Source: Cystobacter fuscus (GTDB lineage Bacteria; Myxococcota; Myxococcia; Myxococcales; Myxococcaceae). Taken from it: a stretch of DNA of 64,000 nucleotides. The notes below the pieces were generated by a model. The model was not told the origin of the DNA. It saw only the letters and a list, made by a program, of their open reading frames with translations, and made no database searches. Of the stretch, positions 3,591 to 52,513 are shown one piece after another (positions within the stretch are counted from its first letter, which is position 1; each line of letters opens with the position of its first letter). Position numbers and translations under genes: made by a program. Location of the stretch: assembly GCF_002305875.1 (NCBI RefSeq), contig NZ_CP022098.1, forward strand, positions 7,254,001 to 7,318,000. Reading direction: 5' to 3'.

Positions 3591-4175
3591 ATGGCAATCA
3601 CAAGCTCCAACATCGATACAGGCAAGACTCCTCAACGAAACATGTCGGGGCTCTGGGGGGGGCCCTTCGTCATGGGTCTGTTGCTCTCCCTGCTTGGCAT
3701 CGTGGCGCTGGGAGCGGTGGTGATCACCAGCGTCGCCTCGGTCGTCTTCTTCGGCTCCATGCTGGTGGTGGCGGGTGTCTTCGAAATCGTCCACGCCTTC
3801 CGCGTCCGCAAGACAGGCCCCTTCCTGATGTTCCTGCTGGGAGGCGTCCTCTCCATCGTGGTGGGGGCGATGGTCCTGGCACGGCCGGGCTCCGGACTGG
3901 TGGCGATGACACTGCTGCTGGCCGGGTACTTCTTCGCCAGCGGGCTCTTCCGGGGCATCACCTCCATCGTCGACCGCTACGCGGGGTGGGGCTGGGACTT
4001 CGCCTACGGCATCGTGTCCGTGGTGCTGGGCGTCATCATCTCCTCCCAGATGCCCACTTCCACCCTGTGGGCGTTGGGGCTCGTGGTGGGCGTGGAAATC
4101 CTCAGCCGCGGCATCTCCATCATGGCGGGTGCGCTCGCGGTGCGCGGGGCGATGCAACGCCTCGCCCACCCATGA
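3591..4175 (+). CDS. HdeD-family (DUF308) integral membrane protein
   Basis: 194 residues with about six hydrophobic spans arranged as three hairpins (for example VMGLLLSLLGIVALGAVVI, FFGSMLVVAGVFEIVHAF, FLMFLLGGVLSIVVGAMVL). The repeated pattern of small and aromatic residues with a short polar loop VRKTG is typical of HdeD proteins. Enterobacterial HdeD is an inner-membrane protein linked to acid resistance, but its biochemical role is unclear and should not be transferred. The start ATG is preceded by GAGG at about 8 nt. Downstream, after the repeat-protein gene, lies a short scrap of a second copy of this gene (5674-5718), so the locus has probably been duplicated. Confidence 0.88.
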   Translation: MAITSSNIDTGKTPQRNMSGLWGGPFVMGLLLSLLGIVALGAVVITSVASVVFFGSMLVVAGVFEIVHAFRVRKTGPFLMFLLGGVLSIVVGAMVLARPGSGLVAMTLLLAGYFFASGLFRGITSIVDRYAGWGWDFAYGIVSVVLGVIISSQMPTSTLWALGLVVGVEILSRGISIMAGALAVRGAMQRLAHP

Positions 4176-4340: not shown

Positions 4341-5585
4341 ATGAGCAGCGAAAAGTTCTCAACCCAGGAGCAGCAGGCGATTGGTGAGTCTCTCAAGGAG
4401 CGCATCACGGATGCGGTCCGCGAGCGTGTCGTGTCAGCTCTCGAGGATGGCCTCGGTACCGAAATTCGCGAGCGCGTCGGCGAGGCGCTGCGCTGCGCGC
4501 AGGCCGAGCGCTCGCCGCTGATTCAGGAACAGCCCGCTCCGCTCGATCCCGAGAACCTCTCGGAGGCCATCCACAAGCGCCTCTCCGAGGCCATCCGCGA
4601 TCGCATCAGCTCCGGCGTGCACGAGCGCGTGCGTGAGGTCCTCAAGGATCGGCTGGGAGAGGCCCTGCGTACCGCGCTGGTCGAGCACTGGATGATCGCC
4701 CAGCAGGGCTATGGCCAGTTCGACACCGAGCGCCTCGCGGAGAAGGTTCGCAACCGCCTCGAGGATGCGCTGCGGGATCGGATCGGCTCCGTCGTACGCG
4801 AGCGTGTCCGCGAGGCGCTCCGAGATCAGTTGGCGGACGCGCTGCGCTCCGCGGTGGCCGAGCGCCGGATGGGGCCGCAGGGCTTCGGCCAGGTCGACCA
4901 CGAGCGCCTCGCGGAGGCCATCCGCGGACGCCTGGCCGATGAACTCCACGAGCGGCTCACCTACGCCGTGCGTGAGCGCGTGCGCGAGGCGCTCAAGGAG
5001 CGGCTGGCGGACGCGCTGCGCTCCGCGGTGGCCGAGCGCCGGATGGGGCCGCAAGGCTTCGGCCAGATCGACCACGAGCGCCTCGCGGACGCCATTCGTG
5101 AGCGCATCGTGGAGGGGATCCGCGAGAAGGTCCACACCGCCCTGCGCGAGCGCGTCCGCGAAGCGCTCCGGGAGCGGCTGGCGGACACGCTGCGCGCCGC
5201 GATGGTCGAGCGCCGGATGGGGCCGCAGGGCTATGGCCAGCTCCAGCCCGAGCGCATCGCGGACGCCCTGCGCGGACGCCTGGTCGACGCCCTCCACGAG
5301 CGGCTCGCGCGCAACTTCCGCGAGCAGCTGGAAGAGGTGCTCCGGGAGCGGCTGGTCGATTCGCTCCGCGACGTGCTGGGCGGGGCTCAGCAGCCAGGCA
5401 TGGGTGAGCCCTGGATGGGCGCCCAGCCCGGCTTCGGTCAGATCGACACCGAGCGCATCGTGAGCGTCATCCGCGAGAGGGTCGGCGAGGAGATCCGCGC
5501 GCGCGTGGCGGAGACGATCGGTGAGCGCGTAGGCGAGGCGGTCCGCCGGGAGCTGAGGAGCAACGTCCAGCATCCGCAGGCCTGA
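4341..5585 (+). CDS. Helical repeat protein with 58-residue repeats and four-residue hydrophobic periodicity
   Basis: 414 residues from the ATG at 4341, which has GGGGGG just upstream. An in-frame earlier start at 4275 is less likely. There is no signal peptide. The body consists of five to six modules of 58 residues, each joined by a loop such as ERRMGPQGFGQIDHER and followed by a long helix. In the helices a hydrophobic residue occurs at every fourth position and Arg-Leu/Arg-Val at every eighth (ERLAEAIRGRLADELHERL), for more than 40 residues at a stretch. It is very rich in Arg, Glu and Ala. A four-residue step does not fit a heptad coiled coil and implies a strongly twisting hydrophobic stripe. 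No family was recognised. It may be a filament, scaffold or membrane-surface protein. Confidence 0.8.
   Translation: MSSEKFSTQEQQAIGESLKERITDAVRERVVSALEDGLGTEIRERVGEALRCAQAERSPLIQEQPAPLDPENLSEAIHKRLSEAIRDRISSGVHERVREVLKDRLGEALRTALVEHWMIAQQGYGQFDTERLAEKVRNRLEDALRDRIGSVVRERVREALRDQLADALRSAVAERRMGPQGFGQVDHERLAEAIRGRLADELHERLTYAVRERVREALKERLADALRSAVAERRMGPQGFGQIDHERLADAIRERIVEGIREKVHTALRERVREALRERLADTLRAAMVERRMGPQGYGQLQPERIADALRGRLVDALHERLARNFREQLEEVLRERLVDSLRDVLGGAQQPGMGEPWMGAQPGFGQIDTERIVSVIRERVGEEIRARVAETIGERVGEAVRRELRSNVQHPQA
4690..5436 (+). repeat. 174-bp in-frame tandem repeats inside the helical repeat gene
   Basis: The loop sequence recurs at 4690, 4864, 5038 and 5212, exactly 174 bp (58 codons) apart, and again near 5407 after a 21-bp longer interval. 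The copies at 4864 and 5038 are nearly identical in DNA, indicating recent duplication or gene conversion. The first and last copies are the most diverged. Confidence 0.85.
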
Positions 5586-5673
5586 CCCTCGCCATCGGGA
5601 GCCAGAGGGGTATGACCGCTCACGCTTGTCGATGATGCGCGGTGACACCCCACTCCTCGAGCGCCAGGAAGCC

Positions 5674-5718
5674 ATGTCCCTCGTGGTGGGGGCGATGGCC
5701 CTGGCGCGGCCGGCCGGA
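5674..5718 (+). pseudogene. HdeD-like gene scrap
   Basis: The translation MSLVVGAMALARPAGG matches VLSIVVGAMVLARPGSG in the HdeD-like protein at 3591-4175. At DNA level TCGTGGTGGGGGCGATGG is identical in both places. Only ~45 bp survive, so this is either the end point of a duplication or a recombination scar. Confidence 0.55.
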
Positions 5719-5738: not shown

Positions 5739-7241
5739 TCAAGGGCCGTAGACGGCCTTCAACTGGACGCCGGAGTAGTCCGAGTACCCCTTGAGCATCA
5801 CGTAATAGGTGCCAGGAAGGGGGGAGCCTGCGTAGCAGCGCTCATAGGTCCCTCCGGCCAGGGAACGACAGTCGTAGTTGGACTCGTCGGGCCGCAGGTC
5901 CTTGCGGACGTACAGGTCGGCGTCACCCGTCCCTCCTTCGGCCGTCACCTCCAGGAAGGCCTTGCCGTCCGGCACCGTGATGGTCCAGTACCTGAAAGAG
6001 CCCGTGGCGCCCGACAGGTTGAGGACCGCCTGGTTGTTCACCAGCACCCCGGTCCCTCCACCGCCGCTCGTGACGTAGGTGCCTCGCAGCGTCACCCCAG
6101 AGAGCGTCCCGGACGAGGACCCGTTGTAGACCCGCACATGCCAGATCCCCGCCTGCGGGGACGTGAAGGTGCAGGTGGAGGTGCCCGACGTCGAGGCACA
6201 GTCATACGAGGACAGCGTCGGCGCGGAGCCCCGCTTCACATACAGGTGAGAGGAGCCTCCAGAGCCCCCGTAGCCCGAGAACGTGAGGCTGGTCGCCCCC
6301 GAGGGGACCTCGAGCGTGTAGTCGCAGGAGAAGGTGCTGGCGGGTGCCCCCACGTTGTTCACGGGCGTATTGTTGACGAGCGCGCTCGTGGTGGTGCAGC
6401 CGGGATACCCCGTCAGGGAGTACAGGCCCGTCAGGCTCGCCCCGGAGAACGTGCCATAGCCATACAGCCTCGCGTAGTAGACGCCGATCCGCGGCATGTC
6501 GATGGTGCAGACCTCATCCGTTCCATAGCCCGCCGACTTGCAGTCGTAGGTGGTGTCGTTCGGCGAGGAGCCGTAGCGCACGTACAGGTCCCCGTCCCCA
6601 CTGCCCCCCGAGGAGACGAACGTGACGCGAGTCGACCCCGACGGGACATAGAAGCTGTAGATGCACGACCAGCTTCCCCCCGACACGCCGATGTTGTTCA
6701 CCGGGACGCCGTTGGAGAGCGTCGTCGTGCTGGTGCAACCCGCCGGACCGCTGGCGAGGAACGAACCGGTCAGGCTGAGCCCGGAGAACGCCTTACTGCC
6801 ATAGACCTTCACATGGTAGGTCCCAGCCTGGGCGGTGGTGATGGCGCAGGTCTCGTAGTTGCTGCTCCCGTTGGAGAGACAGTCATACACGCCCAGGGAA
6901 GGCTCGGAGCCGAACTTCACGTACAGGTCCGCATCCCCGGAGCCGCTGGTCGTGGTGAACTTGAGGTTGGTGGACCCCGACGGAACATTCAGGGTGTAGT
7001 CGCAGGACCACTCGCCCGCCGAGGCAGCGATACCCGTCACCGGGGTGCCGCTGACGAGGGAGCTCGGTCCCGTACAGCTCGAGGCGAGTGCCTGCACCCG
7101 CTCCGGGAGCAGCGGGCCCTTCTCCACCAGGGGCTCGGCCCCGCCCGCCGGCTCCTCGGGAACCGACATCTCGGGACCACACCCCACCAGGGCCAACGTG
7201 AGCCATGACGCCGTGAAAGCCTTCCGCGCAAAACGCTTCAA
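5739..7241 (-). CDS. Lipoprotein with four pre-peptidase C-terminal (PPC) domains
   Basis: 500 residues from a TTG at 7241 with AGGAG six bases upstream. A longer frame from 7346 has no ribosome site. The signal LKRFARKAFTASWLTLALV ends in lipobox ALVGC, followed by a short acidic linker and four domains of ~100 residues. Each has the PPC signature: a W/FSCDYTLNVPSG-like strand, then GSGDADLYVKFGS, a Cys pair, and AGTYHVKVYG. PPC domains are beta-sandwiches usually attached to secreted proteases, where they help secretion or substrate binding. Here they stand alone without a catalytic domain, so the protein is probably a surface adhesin or binding protein. Aromatic and Gly/Ser content is high. 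Confidence 0.85.
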   Translation of the reverse strand: MKRFARKAFTASWLTLALVGCGPEMSVPEEPAGGAEPLVEKGPLLPERVQALASSCTGPSSLVSGTPVTGIAASAGEWSCDYTLNVPSGSTNLKFTTTSGSGDADLYVKFGSEPSLGVYDCLSNGSSNYETCAITTAQAGTYHVKVYGSKAFSGLSLTGSFLASGPAGCTSTTTLSNGVPVNNIGVSGGSWSCIYSFYVPSGSTRVTFVSSGGSGDGDLYVRYGSSPNDTTYDCKSAGYGTDEVCTIDMPRIGVYYARLYGYGTFSGASLTGLYSLTGYPGCTTTSALVNNTPVNNVGAPASTFSCDYTLEVPSGATSLTFSGYGGSGGSSHLYVKRGSAPTLSSYDCASTSGTSTCTFTSPQAGIWHVRVYNGSSSGTLSGVTLRGTYVTSGGGGTGVLVNNQAVLNLSGATGSFRYWTITVPDGKAFLEVTAEGGTGDADLYVRKDLRPDESNYDCRSLAGGTYERCYAGSPLPGTYYVMLKGYSDYSGVQLKAVYGP

Positions 7242-7369
7242 GGGATTCTCCTGACTCCAAGAACTGGCTTCGTCTGGTGCACCGCGAGACACGTCGTCGT
7301 CGCGGGCGTTTCGACGAAGAGAGATACTAGGAGTCAGGTCTGACACGTACCTCGGGTTTTACCGGGAAC

Positions 7370-50833: not shown

Positions 50834-52513
50834 TCAGGGCTCCGGGGCTCCCGACCCATGTTCGAGATTGAGGAAGAAATCCAGGAGCGCCTCCTCCGCG
50901 CGCTCGCGCGCCACGCCCTGGGCCCGCGCGTACTGCTCGAGAAGCCGCTTCAGCTCGGCACGGGGCTCGGGAGGGAGCCGCTCGAGCAGGGCGTGCCCCT
51001 TGCGCTCCACCGCGCTCTGCCCTGGCGCCAGGGCGGGGACGGCCCTACCCACGTCCGCCACCGAGAGGGCCACCGTCTTGGCGTTCGTCGTGCCGGGCTG
51101 GCTGACGGAGACCTTCACCACCCCGTTGAGATCGTAGGCGAACTCCACCCGCACCGGTGAGTTCGCGGGCCGGGGCTCGAGCGGGAACTCGAAGGCCCCC
51201 ACCCGCGTGTTCTCCGAGACCCGGTGCGACTCACCCTGAAACACCTCCACCTGGACGAGTTCCTGCCCGGGCACCACGGTGTAGAACTCCTCCACCTTCG
51301 TCGTCGGCAACACCGTGTTGCGGCGGAGGACCGGGGCGAAGGTATCCGGCGTGGCGCTCCCGATGTCGTCCTCTCCGGTGACGCGCATGCCCAGGCTATG
51401 CGACGCCACATCCACGAGGATGCGTCCCACCGGCTCGCCGGACAACATGCCGGCCTGGATGGCCGCGCCCAATCCCACGGCCAGATCTGGATCCACTTCC
51501 TCGTGGATGTCTGCTCCGAAAGCCTCCTCCAGCATCTGGCGGACCCGGGGGATCCGCGTCGAGCCTCCCACCAGGCATATCCTGGACAATGACTGCCCCT
51601 CGAGCCGGGCCTCCGCGAGGGCCTGACGGGTCAGGGTCACGGTGGACTCGAGCAGCGGCTCGATGAGCACCTCGAAGGCGCGCCGCCGCACCTCCATCTC
51701 GAGGTGGATGGGCCTGCCTTGCGCCTGGGTGAGGAACTCCTCCTTCACGTGCACGGAGATGTCCGCGGACAGACGGATCTTCGTCTCCTCGGCCAGTTGG
51801 CGCAGGCGCGCCATGGCCCGCACGTCCTCGCGAGGCTCCACGCCCTGCTTCTTGAGCTCCTCGAGGAAGAGCTGAACGAGCTTGTCGTCGAAGTCGTCCC
51901 CGCCCAGGTGGGTGTTGCCCGAGGTGGAGCGCACCTCACGCACTCCCTGGAACACCTCGAGCACCGACACGTCGAACGTGCCGCCCCCCAGGTCGTAGAC
52001 GAGAAGGATCTCGGGCTCGGCCACACGGAGAGCCTCGGGATGCAACACGTGCTCATACAGGAGCGAGGCGCTGGTGGGCTCATTGAGCAGCCGCAACACG
52101 TGCAGCCCCGCTCGCTGGCCAGCCTCGAGGGTTGCGCGGCGCTGGGCGTCATCGAAATAGGCAGGCACGGTAATGACCACGTCACGCACGGGGACGCCGG
52201 TGGCCTTCTCGGCTCCCCGCTTGAGCGCGGACAGGATTTCGGCGGACACCTCCTCGGGAGACACCTCGCGCCCGGCGATGGCGTAGCGGTGGAGCGTCCC
52301 CATCTTGCGCTTGACCGAGCGGATGCACCGCTCGGGCCTCAGCATCTCGAGGTTGCGCGCCTCGCGCCCCACGAGGACACGATCGTCCTCGTAGAGGACC
52401 ACCGAGGGGACGATGCGACTGCCTTCCACGGGCACGGCCACCGGGCGGCCCTCCACCAGGTGGGCGATGACAGAGTTGGTCGTACCCAGATCGATTCCAA
52501 AGACATGGCTCAA
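50834..52513 (-). CDS. DnaK/Hsp70-family chaperone, shortened C-terminus
   Basis: 559 residues from a TTG at 52513 (GAGGAA six bases upstream) overlapping the GrpE-like stop as TTGA. The ATPase motifs are intact: [55 protein letters not shown] and [18 protein letters not shown]. The substrate-binding domain is present ([20 protein letters not shown], then [18 protein letters not shown]). The lid is short and ends without the EEVD/acidic tail of housekeeping DnaK. It is ATP-driven and binds unfolded chains. Since it is encoded with its own GrpE- and J-like partners, it is a specialised second Hsp70, not the main heat-shock one. Confidence 0.93.

Follow-up and report, generated by a model that had tools for sequence, protein, structure and literature searches.

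The gene at positions 4341..5585 (+ strand) of the window, i.e., the whole 64,000-nucleotide stretch of Cystobacter fuscus DNA analyzed here, encodes a protein of 414 amino acids (ATG at 4341, stop codon ending at 5585) with seven units, in each of which hydrophobic residues recur at exactly every fourth position. Judging from sequence comparison and structural models, this octad-repeat protein may be a lineage-restricted, probably cytoplasmic structural scaffold of linked helical rods, a reading to which we give a little less than even weight. With more reserve, we consider it possible that the family forms a natural helical assembly with a true 4.0 period, based either on multi-partner right-handed crossings or on a regularly pi-bulged helix, lying outside the coiled-coil range and kept by selection in one order. 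Seven natural helices at exactly 4.0 make the spacing limit of coiled coils directly testable, a conserved 4.0 family would give protein design a new rule, and for myxobacteria the octad family would be an undescribed structural protein.

Hydrophobic spacing and octad composition

Exact spacing-4 runs of I, L, V, M, or F begin at residues 14, 73, 132, 190, 248, 306, and 373 and contain 10, 11, 11, 11, 11, 11, and 10 members, respectively, the next best run having two. They delimit the unit cores, all on the + strand: unit 1 (residues 14–50, positions 4380..4490), unit 2 (73–113, 4557..4679), unit 3 (132–172, 4734..4856), unit 4 (190–230, 4908..5030), unit 5 (248–288, 5082..5204), unit 6 (306–346, 5256..5378), and unit 7 (373–409, 5457..5567). 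The linkers on the same strand were compared in a MAFFT alignment of 29 Myxococcaceae sequences (the window protein and 28 homologues, excluding a truncated copy, L032, from genome G032). Linker 1 (4491..4556) has 22 residues in the window protein and 22–33 in the 29 sequences; linker 2 (4680..4733; 13–19 residues in the 29) contains HWMIAQQGYGQ; linkers 3 (4857..4907; 14–18) and 4 (5031..5081; 12–19) carry RRMGPQGFGQ; linker 5 (5205..5255; 17–56) carries RRMGPQGYGQ; and linker 6 (5379..5456; 24–35) is rich in Gly, Gln, Met, and Pro.

The autocorrelation of ILVMF residues, which account for about a quarter of the window protein, is enriched at lags 4, 8, 12, 16, and 20 (z = 11.0, 11.8, 9.2, 7.0, and 5.8, respectively) and depleted at lags 3, 7, and 11 (z = −3.6, −4.7, and −4.2), and the power peak lies at 3.9–4.1 in all seven segments. 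The signature of heptad coiled coils, enrichment of lags 3, 4, and 7, is absent, only lag 4 being up and lags 3 and 7 down; the signature of 11/3, 15/4, and 19/5 repeats (period 3.67–3.8 with mixed 4- and 3-residue steps) is absent as well, 4-steps alone occurring within the runs. In 2000 full shuffles, the longest run averaged 4.2 and reached at most 10. Runs of 10–14 were found in 36 rows of 337 called genes, all 36 being family members, and the other 301 had runs of nine or less; these genes come from overlapping loci, with some counted twice, and one family locus (L081) is entered as its antisense frame. The longest run outside the family, nine, belongs to an ORF of the window at 50834–52513 (−), which looks Hsp70-like by eye at its N-terminus.

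The first-pass annotation of this DNA had described hydrophobic residues at i, i+4, i+8 in every helix block, Arg–hydrophobic pairs every eight residues, and a conflict with 7/2 and 11/3 coiled coils. The seven exact runs with the enriched lag-4 series, the octad profile of the family, and the depletion of lags 7 and 11 at an exact 4.0 period bear out these three observations, respectively, and the coiled-coil period analysis it called for gave the power peaks at 3.9–4.1. The dimensions have to be adjusted: the stripe, said to extend for more than 40 residues, is indeed long but spans 37–41; the start-to-start distance of the units is the claimed 58 residues in three cases, but 59, 59, and, for the last one, 67 in the others; the loop RRMGPQGFGQ, said to be conserved, is exact in two of the six linkers, with one further linker differing by Tyr for Phe, but is not conserved between genera.

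The octad consensus of the 29 sequences, in positions a to h, is [LVI], small, [DE], Ala, [LVI], Arg, Glu, Arg. Variability is lowest at the Arg positions f and h, with entropies of 0.41 and 0.49, respectively, compared to 0.77–0.80 for the core. When ridges are set on the window protein's own row, ridge 0 consists of ILVMF in 97.8% of 2175 cells (29 sequences, seven units), ridge 2 is 67.8% acidic, and ridges 1 and 3 are mostly small or basic; small and arginine positions flank the hydrophobic ridge on both sides, and acids lie opposite. On an alpha helix, the four i+4 ridges spiral right-handedly with approximately one turn per 36 residues. The expected drift of the stripe by 40 degrees per step is matched by the local hydrophobic moment, which rotates by 30–40 degrees per four residues. 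The charge of the window protein is near neutral (74 Arg and Lys versus 76 Asp and Glu).

Family, reading frame, and genomic context

Of 147 class genomes, 34 gave a match in a profile search, a partial one in two cases. They are three of the four genomes in the window's genus (including a truncated copy), 14 of the 16 in g6, 12 of the 27 in g19, and single genomes in g13 (partial) and g17; the other three belong to other families of the same order. With so few matches, the gene is dispensable in most of the lineage. The phylum scan gave 35 matching genomes out of 195, all within the same order; the additional match (G052, E = 3.9e-7) looks like chance, because it has no long spacing-4 run, the longest runs in this and another weak match (G092) being six and five. 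As far as tested at the sequence level, the family is confined to one bacterial order. Tblastn gave no match in phages and plasmids. In species genomes (84,980 species), no locus was confirmed with six peptide patterns taken from the window protein, and two patterns derived from the alignment confirmed 18 loci from 207 stretches, such scans detecting only sequences that carry the patterns. All 18 are myxobacterial, except for one record labeled Comamonas sp. KCTC 72670 (L086, BNCN01000003.1) that is probably misnamed; the named carriers are Corallococcus, Myxococcus (including M. xanthus AM003 and M. vastator), and Pyxidicoccus.

A second copy was not found in the window's own 12.35-Mb single-contig genome, where the other rows were the antisense of the gene itself and a weak match at E = 0.057. 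Genome G067 has two full-length copies on separate contigs (L106, L107). In G032, from the window's genus (L104, L046, and L032 cover the locus), only the first 81 and the last 80 residues of the homologue are left, each in a frame of its own, next to repeated DUF308 gene fragments; this may be a degraded copy or an assembly fault. Three distant relatives outside the 29 (L066, L067, L068) have five units and are 38–39% identical to the window protein; unit 7 of the latter aligns with the last unit of the five-unit relatives. Greedy segmentation assigned seven units to 23 of the 29 sequences and six, probably as an artifact, to the remaining 6. Each of the 32 sequences examined has recognizable blocks, in which hydrophobic residues fill 80% or more of the spacing-4 positions.

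Conservation concerns the register of the units and not the length of what joins them. Unit cores contain no indels except for a four-residue insertion near the end of unit 5 in two of the 29 sequences, which keeps the register, and the N-terminal 13 residues are constant in length in all 29, whereas linkers between units vary from 12 to 56 residues. Counted over sequence pairs, which are not independent events, 94.7% of changes at core positions stay within ILVMF, and 11.7% of changes at other helix positions lead to ILVMF; identity is no higher at the core (0.66) than at other helix positions (0.67). Within the window's genus, 28 codons changed non-synonymously and 20 synonymously, compared to 10 and 18 in a Myxococcus pair; the counts from the window's genus are weak sequence-based evidence for purifying selection.

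The choice of the reading frame deserves attention, as an antisense ORF of 413 amino acids at 4434–5675 (−) overlaps the octad gene, and long antisense frames accompany many homologues, because GC-rich octads rarely yield antisense stops. Across the family, the third codon position is the most variable. Mean pairwise identity is 0.621 in antisense frame 1 and 0.626 in the sense frame, the latter ranking first among the six frames in 257 of 402 pairs (pairs more than 97% identical in sense excluded), and thus conservation alone cannot decide which frame is real. Antisense frame 0 is mostly open (stop-free in 25 of 29 members), yet its conservation is clearly lower (0.53). The antisense ORF was rejected as a real gene, since antisense frame 1 contains stops in 27 of 29 members and frame 0 is the less conserved one. 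At L081, a simple gene caller preferred the antisense frame to the family member, and hence automated annotation could err likewise.

Immediately upstream of the octad gene lies a DUF308 gene (3591..4175, + strand; Pfam PF03729, E = 5.8e-20). A DUF308 gene also adjoins the homologue in the window's genus (L033, L046) and lies near it in G143 (L066, 6259–6813); among the loci of 14 kb and less, tblastn with the window's DUF308 protein detected no further one. Many class genomes (65 of 147) contain DUF308 relatives, and at two DUF308 loci that lack a nearby octad gene (G004, G003), tblastn revealed no trace of it. In five genomes spanning two families (G053, G023, G025, G031, G137), the octad gene has beside or near it an outer-membrane beta-barrel gene, whose identity between families is about 40%; the beta-barrel gene has no match in the window's genome. 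Such genes lie at L105 11559–12347, L110 10678–11454, L120 8383–9171, and L116 8677–9423, with Pfam OMP_b-brl in the two that were scanned and genes for DUF4136-type lipoproteins accompanying them in L105 and L116. The beta-barrel gene is present in 32 and the octad gene in 34 of 147 class genomes, both in 12 versus approximately seven expected by chance, too weak a co-occurrence to assign a function from an operon or context, and this line was dropped. Neighbors of the octad gene differ between genera, i.e., the context is not conserved, and the adjacency to DUF308 is a weak hint at function. A promoter scan found nothing. Further along the window, 5739–7346 (−) encodes a protein of 535 amino acids with about four similar repeats of ~110 residues, which by eye we take to resemble pre-peptidase C-terminal domains.

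Predicted structure, packing, and rival explanations

AF2 modeling of the full protein from an alignment of 21 sequences (the window protein and 20 homologues) yielded helices 8–35 and 38–57 for unit 1, and 70–121, 129–173, 187–234, 245–291, 303–346, and 370–407 for units 2 to 7, respectively, at middling confidence (pLDDT 62, pTM 0.47). Units 2–7 are thus predicted to form one continuous alpha helix each, of 38–52 residues, and the helix of unit 1 is predicted to be split into 28 and 20 residues. A three-unit model (89 rows) has three helices of 48 or 49 residues (pLDDT 70, pTM 0.45). The first-pass annotation held that short unrelated helices or a match to a known family would tell against it; both were looked for, and what was found are long, continuous predicted helices and, among the matches listed, no family over its cut-off for the window protein.

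According to excerpts of a 2016 eLife paper (PMC4786415), 4.0 residues per turn is outside the range accessible to coiled coils. By a simple calculation, the reason is the tilt that a symmetric supercoil would need at this spacing, 31 degrees with two helices, 44 with three, and 54 with four, compared to 12, 16, and 19 degrees, respectively, for heptads. Hence, the octad protein probably packs in a way not yet described. As the hydrophobic ridge winds approximately once per 36 residues, no single partner would cover a whole helix; instead, each rod could make several short right-handed crossings, with i, i+4 ridge packing, to different neighboring rods, whether from its own chain or from further copies, and the Arg/Glu ladders would set the register between rods. 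The rods would be rigid, ~60 Å long, and joined by flexible Gly/Gln/Met-rich linkers of free length, and their packing by right-handed crossings or stacking, rather than in a canonical supercoil, would produce a scaffold, bundle, or filament, and not an enzyme or a membrane protein.

The seven helices might, however, fold back within one chain into an antiparallel bundle or solenoid, making the protein a monomeric adaptor or hub, loosely similar to a dynamin stalk or a BAR domain, which we consider unlikely but the most serious of the competing explanations. The linkers are long enough for hairpins, and VIA-align matches the three-unit model over its full length with long-helix bundles, namely, apoA-IV (Z 9.9, rmsd 8.4, 151 aligned), a subunit of the Drp1 lattice (Z 9.0, rmsd 3.5, 159 aligned), and BAR domains (Z about 7–9, rmsd about 10), and the full model best with a chain of the CNOT9–CNOT1 complex (Z 8.4, rmsd 4.3, 166 aligned); but all these values fall within the tool's background for helical bundles, where Z under ~13 may mean a common arrangement only. 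Also against such a bundle are the pTM values of both models, the absence of Foldseek matches in PDB at E ≤ 0.001 for either of them, and the 4.0 stripe itself, which is expected to drift off any neighbor after ~12–16 residues. The likeness to apoA-IV, the top structural row, would also suit helices that cover hydrophobic surfaces, be it of a lipid body, a storage granule, or a membrane, in the manner of apolipoproteins and perilipins, and local 16-residue windows are indeed amphipathic, with moments up to 0.79. Over the whole helix, however, the moment is only 0.01–0.17 at 100 degrees versus 0.40–0.47 at 90 degrees; with such near-complete cancellation of the alpha-helical moment, a flat hydrophobic face is missing, and conservation is stronger at the Arg positions than in the hydrophobic core. 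Surface-coating helices are expected to use 11/3-type repeats, and we regard a coat as improbable. 

A mixed alpha/pi helix with ~4 residues per turn, in which the octad is a heptad plus a skip residue absorbed by a pi-turn, seems still harder to credit, and the same low probability applies to the bundle of such helices, which would be ordinary in other respects and have straight faces of hydrophobic, acidic, and small/Arg type; we know of no structure that repeats a pi-turn every eight residues. The halves of the octad do differ (small–acid–small versus R–E–R), there are four clean ridges at exactly 4, and a pi-turn can accommodate single-residue skips (PMC4786415, excerpts), but AF2 output gives "helix" only, with pi turns not distinguished. 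The idea that the spacing is a relic of 24-nt DNA repeat expansion without structural meaning is largely refuted and very improbable: it agrees with within-unit DNA self-similarity, which is 0.53 at 24 and 48 nt, 0.42 at 12 and 36 nt, and 0.26–0.32 at other multiples of 3 tested, and with a different, simple-repeat-like protein of G003, but the pattern persists at 38–39% identity in other families, and ridge 0 is retained at 97.8% in the 29 sequences with no register-breaking indels. Octads may nevertheless stem from simple-repeat expansion, which we count against the scaffold reading, along with the patchy distribution, the middling AF2 confidence, the codon counts within the window's genus, the differing gene neighborhoods, and the incomplete drop of the GvpQ score in shuffles. 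The G003 protein itself (L126), whose frame is open for 833 codons of the fetched stretch, carries a run of 27 hydrophobics at spacing 4, flanked by F/V/G, within a simple repeat resembling FVRDFGRE; this octapeptide expansion is independent and looks recent. As remote as the relic reading is an array of stable single alpha helices (SAH) serving as spacers: Arg and Glu are abundant and i, i+3 pairs are mostly of opposite charge (48 versus 6 of the same charge), but at i, i+4 opposite-charge pairs are few (14 versus 40), about a quarter of residues are ILVMF, and these form a continuous hydrophobic ridge. In the available portions of the source describing an SAH predictor, hydrophobics at i, i+4, i+8 are scored negatively, and SAH domains contain up to 80% E/K/R (PMC5812594).

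Comparison with known families and systems

The claim that the protein belongs to no named family holds for the window protein, for which nothing exceeded the cut-off in NCBIfam or among the 25 of 36 matches listed for Pfam; attempts to file it with Pfam, NCBIfam, PHROGs, and PADLOC were abandoned, the matches there being sub-threshold or patchwork throughout. In Pfam, DUF445 (PF04286), to which E. coli YjiN belongs, shows sub-threshold similarity over the central helical part (32.5 bits versus the cut-off of 33.8, starting at profile position 58). Six of 10 other members scanned singly were listed at E ≤ 1e-6 with 31.0–33.6 bits, none over the cut-off; in the scan of 21 members, 19 match at E ≤ 1e-3 (best 4.4e-9), and the cut-off may be exceeded in at least one member. 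Similarly, GvpQ (NCBIfam NF041670) scores 39.6 bits against a cut-off of 100 with no single stretch passing, and all 21 members match it below the cut-off (best E = 6.3e-12). Shuffles that preserve the octads and keep the linkers still match DUF445 in five of six cases (28.4–33.2 bits), and none of two does so at E ≤ 1e-3 if the linkers are shuffled as well; GvpQ is matched by two of two octad shuffles, at 25.5 and 32.2 bits, only a partial drop from 39.6. Thus, both matches are mainly effects of the pattern. In the window's own genome, the sole DUF445 match is the octad gene itself.

The best PHROGs match, phrog_3311 of unknown function, has E = 1.3e-10 in a collection without cut-offs and involves 21 of 21 members, with no single stretch passing. 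Short Pfam models exceeded their cut-offs without any passing stretch in L030 (DUF7754) and L068 (CdrL_M); octad shuffles likewise pass short models (YpjP, DUF668, CTD2, DUF1400, DUF7750, HI0933_like_1st), and we therefore treat the two as pattern noise. When solved structures were searched with a profile, three weak matches emerged, the best (E = 9.2e-4) to an addiction-module antidote chimera, and a viral fold library gave none to the three-unit model at E ≤ 0.001; by sequence profiles and models, no convincing relative appears among solved structures. In the literature searched, mostly outside subscription journals, we found no description of a family with octad repeats or four-residue periodicity.

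YjiN differs from the octad protein in its longest spacing-4 run, which is five, and in hydrophobic membrane segments at its ends, seen by eye; such segments are absent from the window protein, whose maximum Kyte–Doolittle value over 19 residues is 0.29. FilP and Scy, cytoskeletal coiled coils, are also bacterial structural proteins with long helices and non-heptad repeats, but they are hendecads in dimeric coiled coils, and exact 4.0 spacing is not described for them in the accessible sections of the source (PMC9858780). Right-handed coiled coils (hendecads 11/3, pentadecads 15/4, and 19/5 in YadA) resemble the octad protein in long helices, a spacing above 3.63, and a right-handed stripe; however, they mix 4- and 3-residue steps, whereas octad units have nine or ten consecutive 4-steps and no 3-step, and the most extreme spacing cited in the excerpted paper is 3.8 (PMC4786415). 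Stable single alpha helices share the long Arg/Glu-rich helices with the octad protein, which is set apart by the scarcity of i, i+4 salt bridges and by an unbroken hydrophobic ridge. Apolipoprotein-type repeats are likewise tandem long amphipathic helices, but their period near 3.67 gives a flat face, whereas the face of the octad protein spirals.
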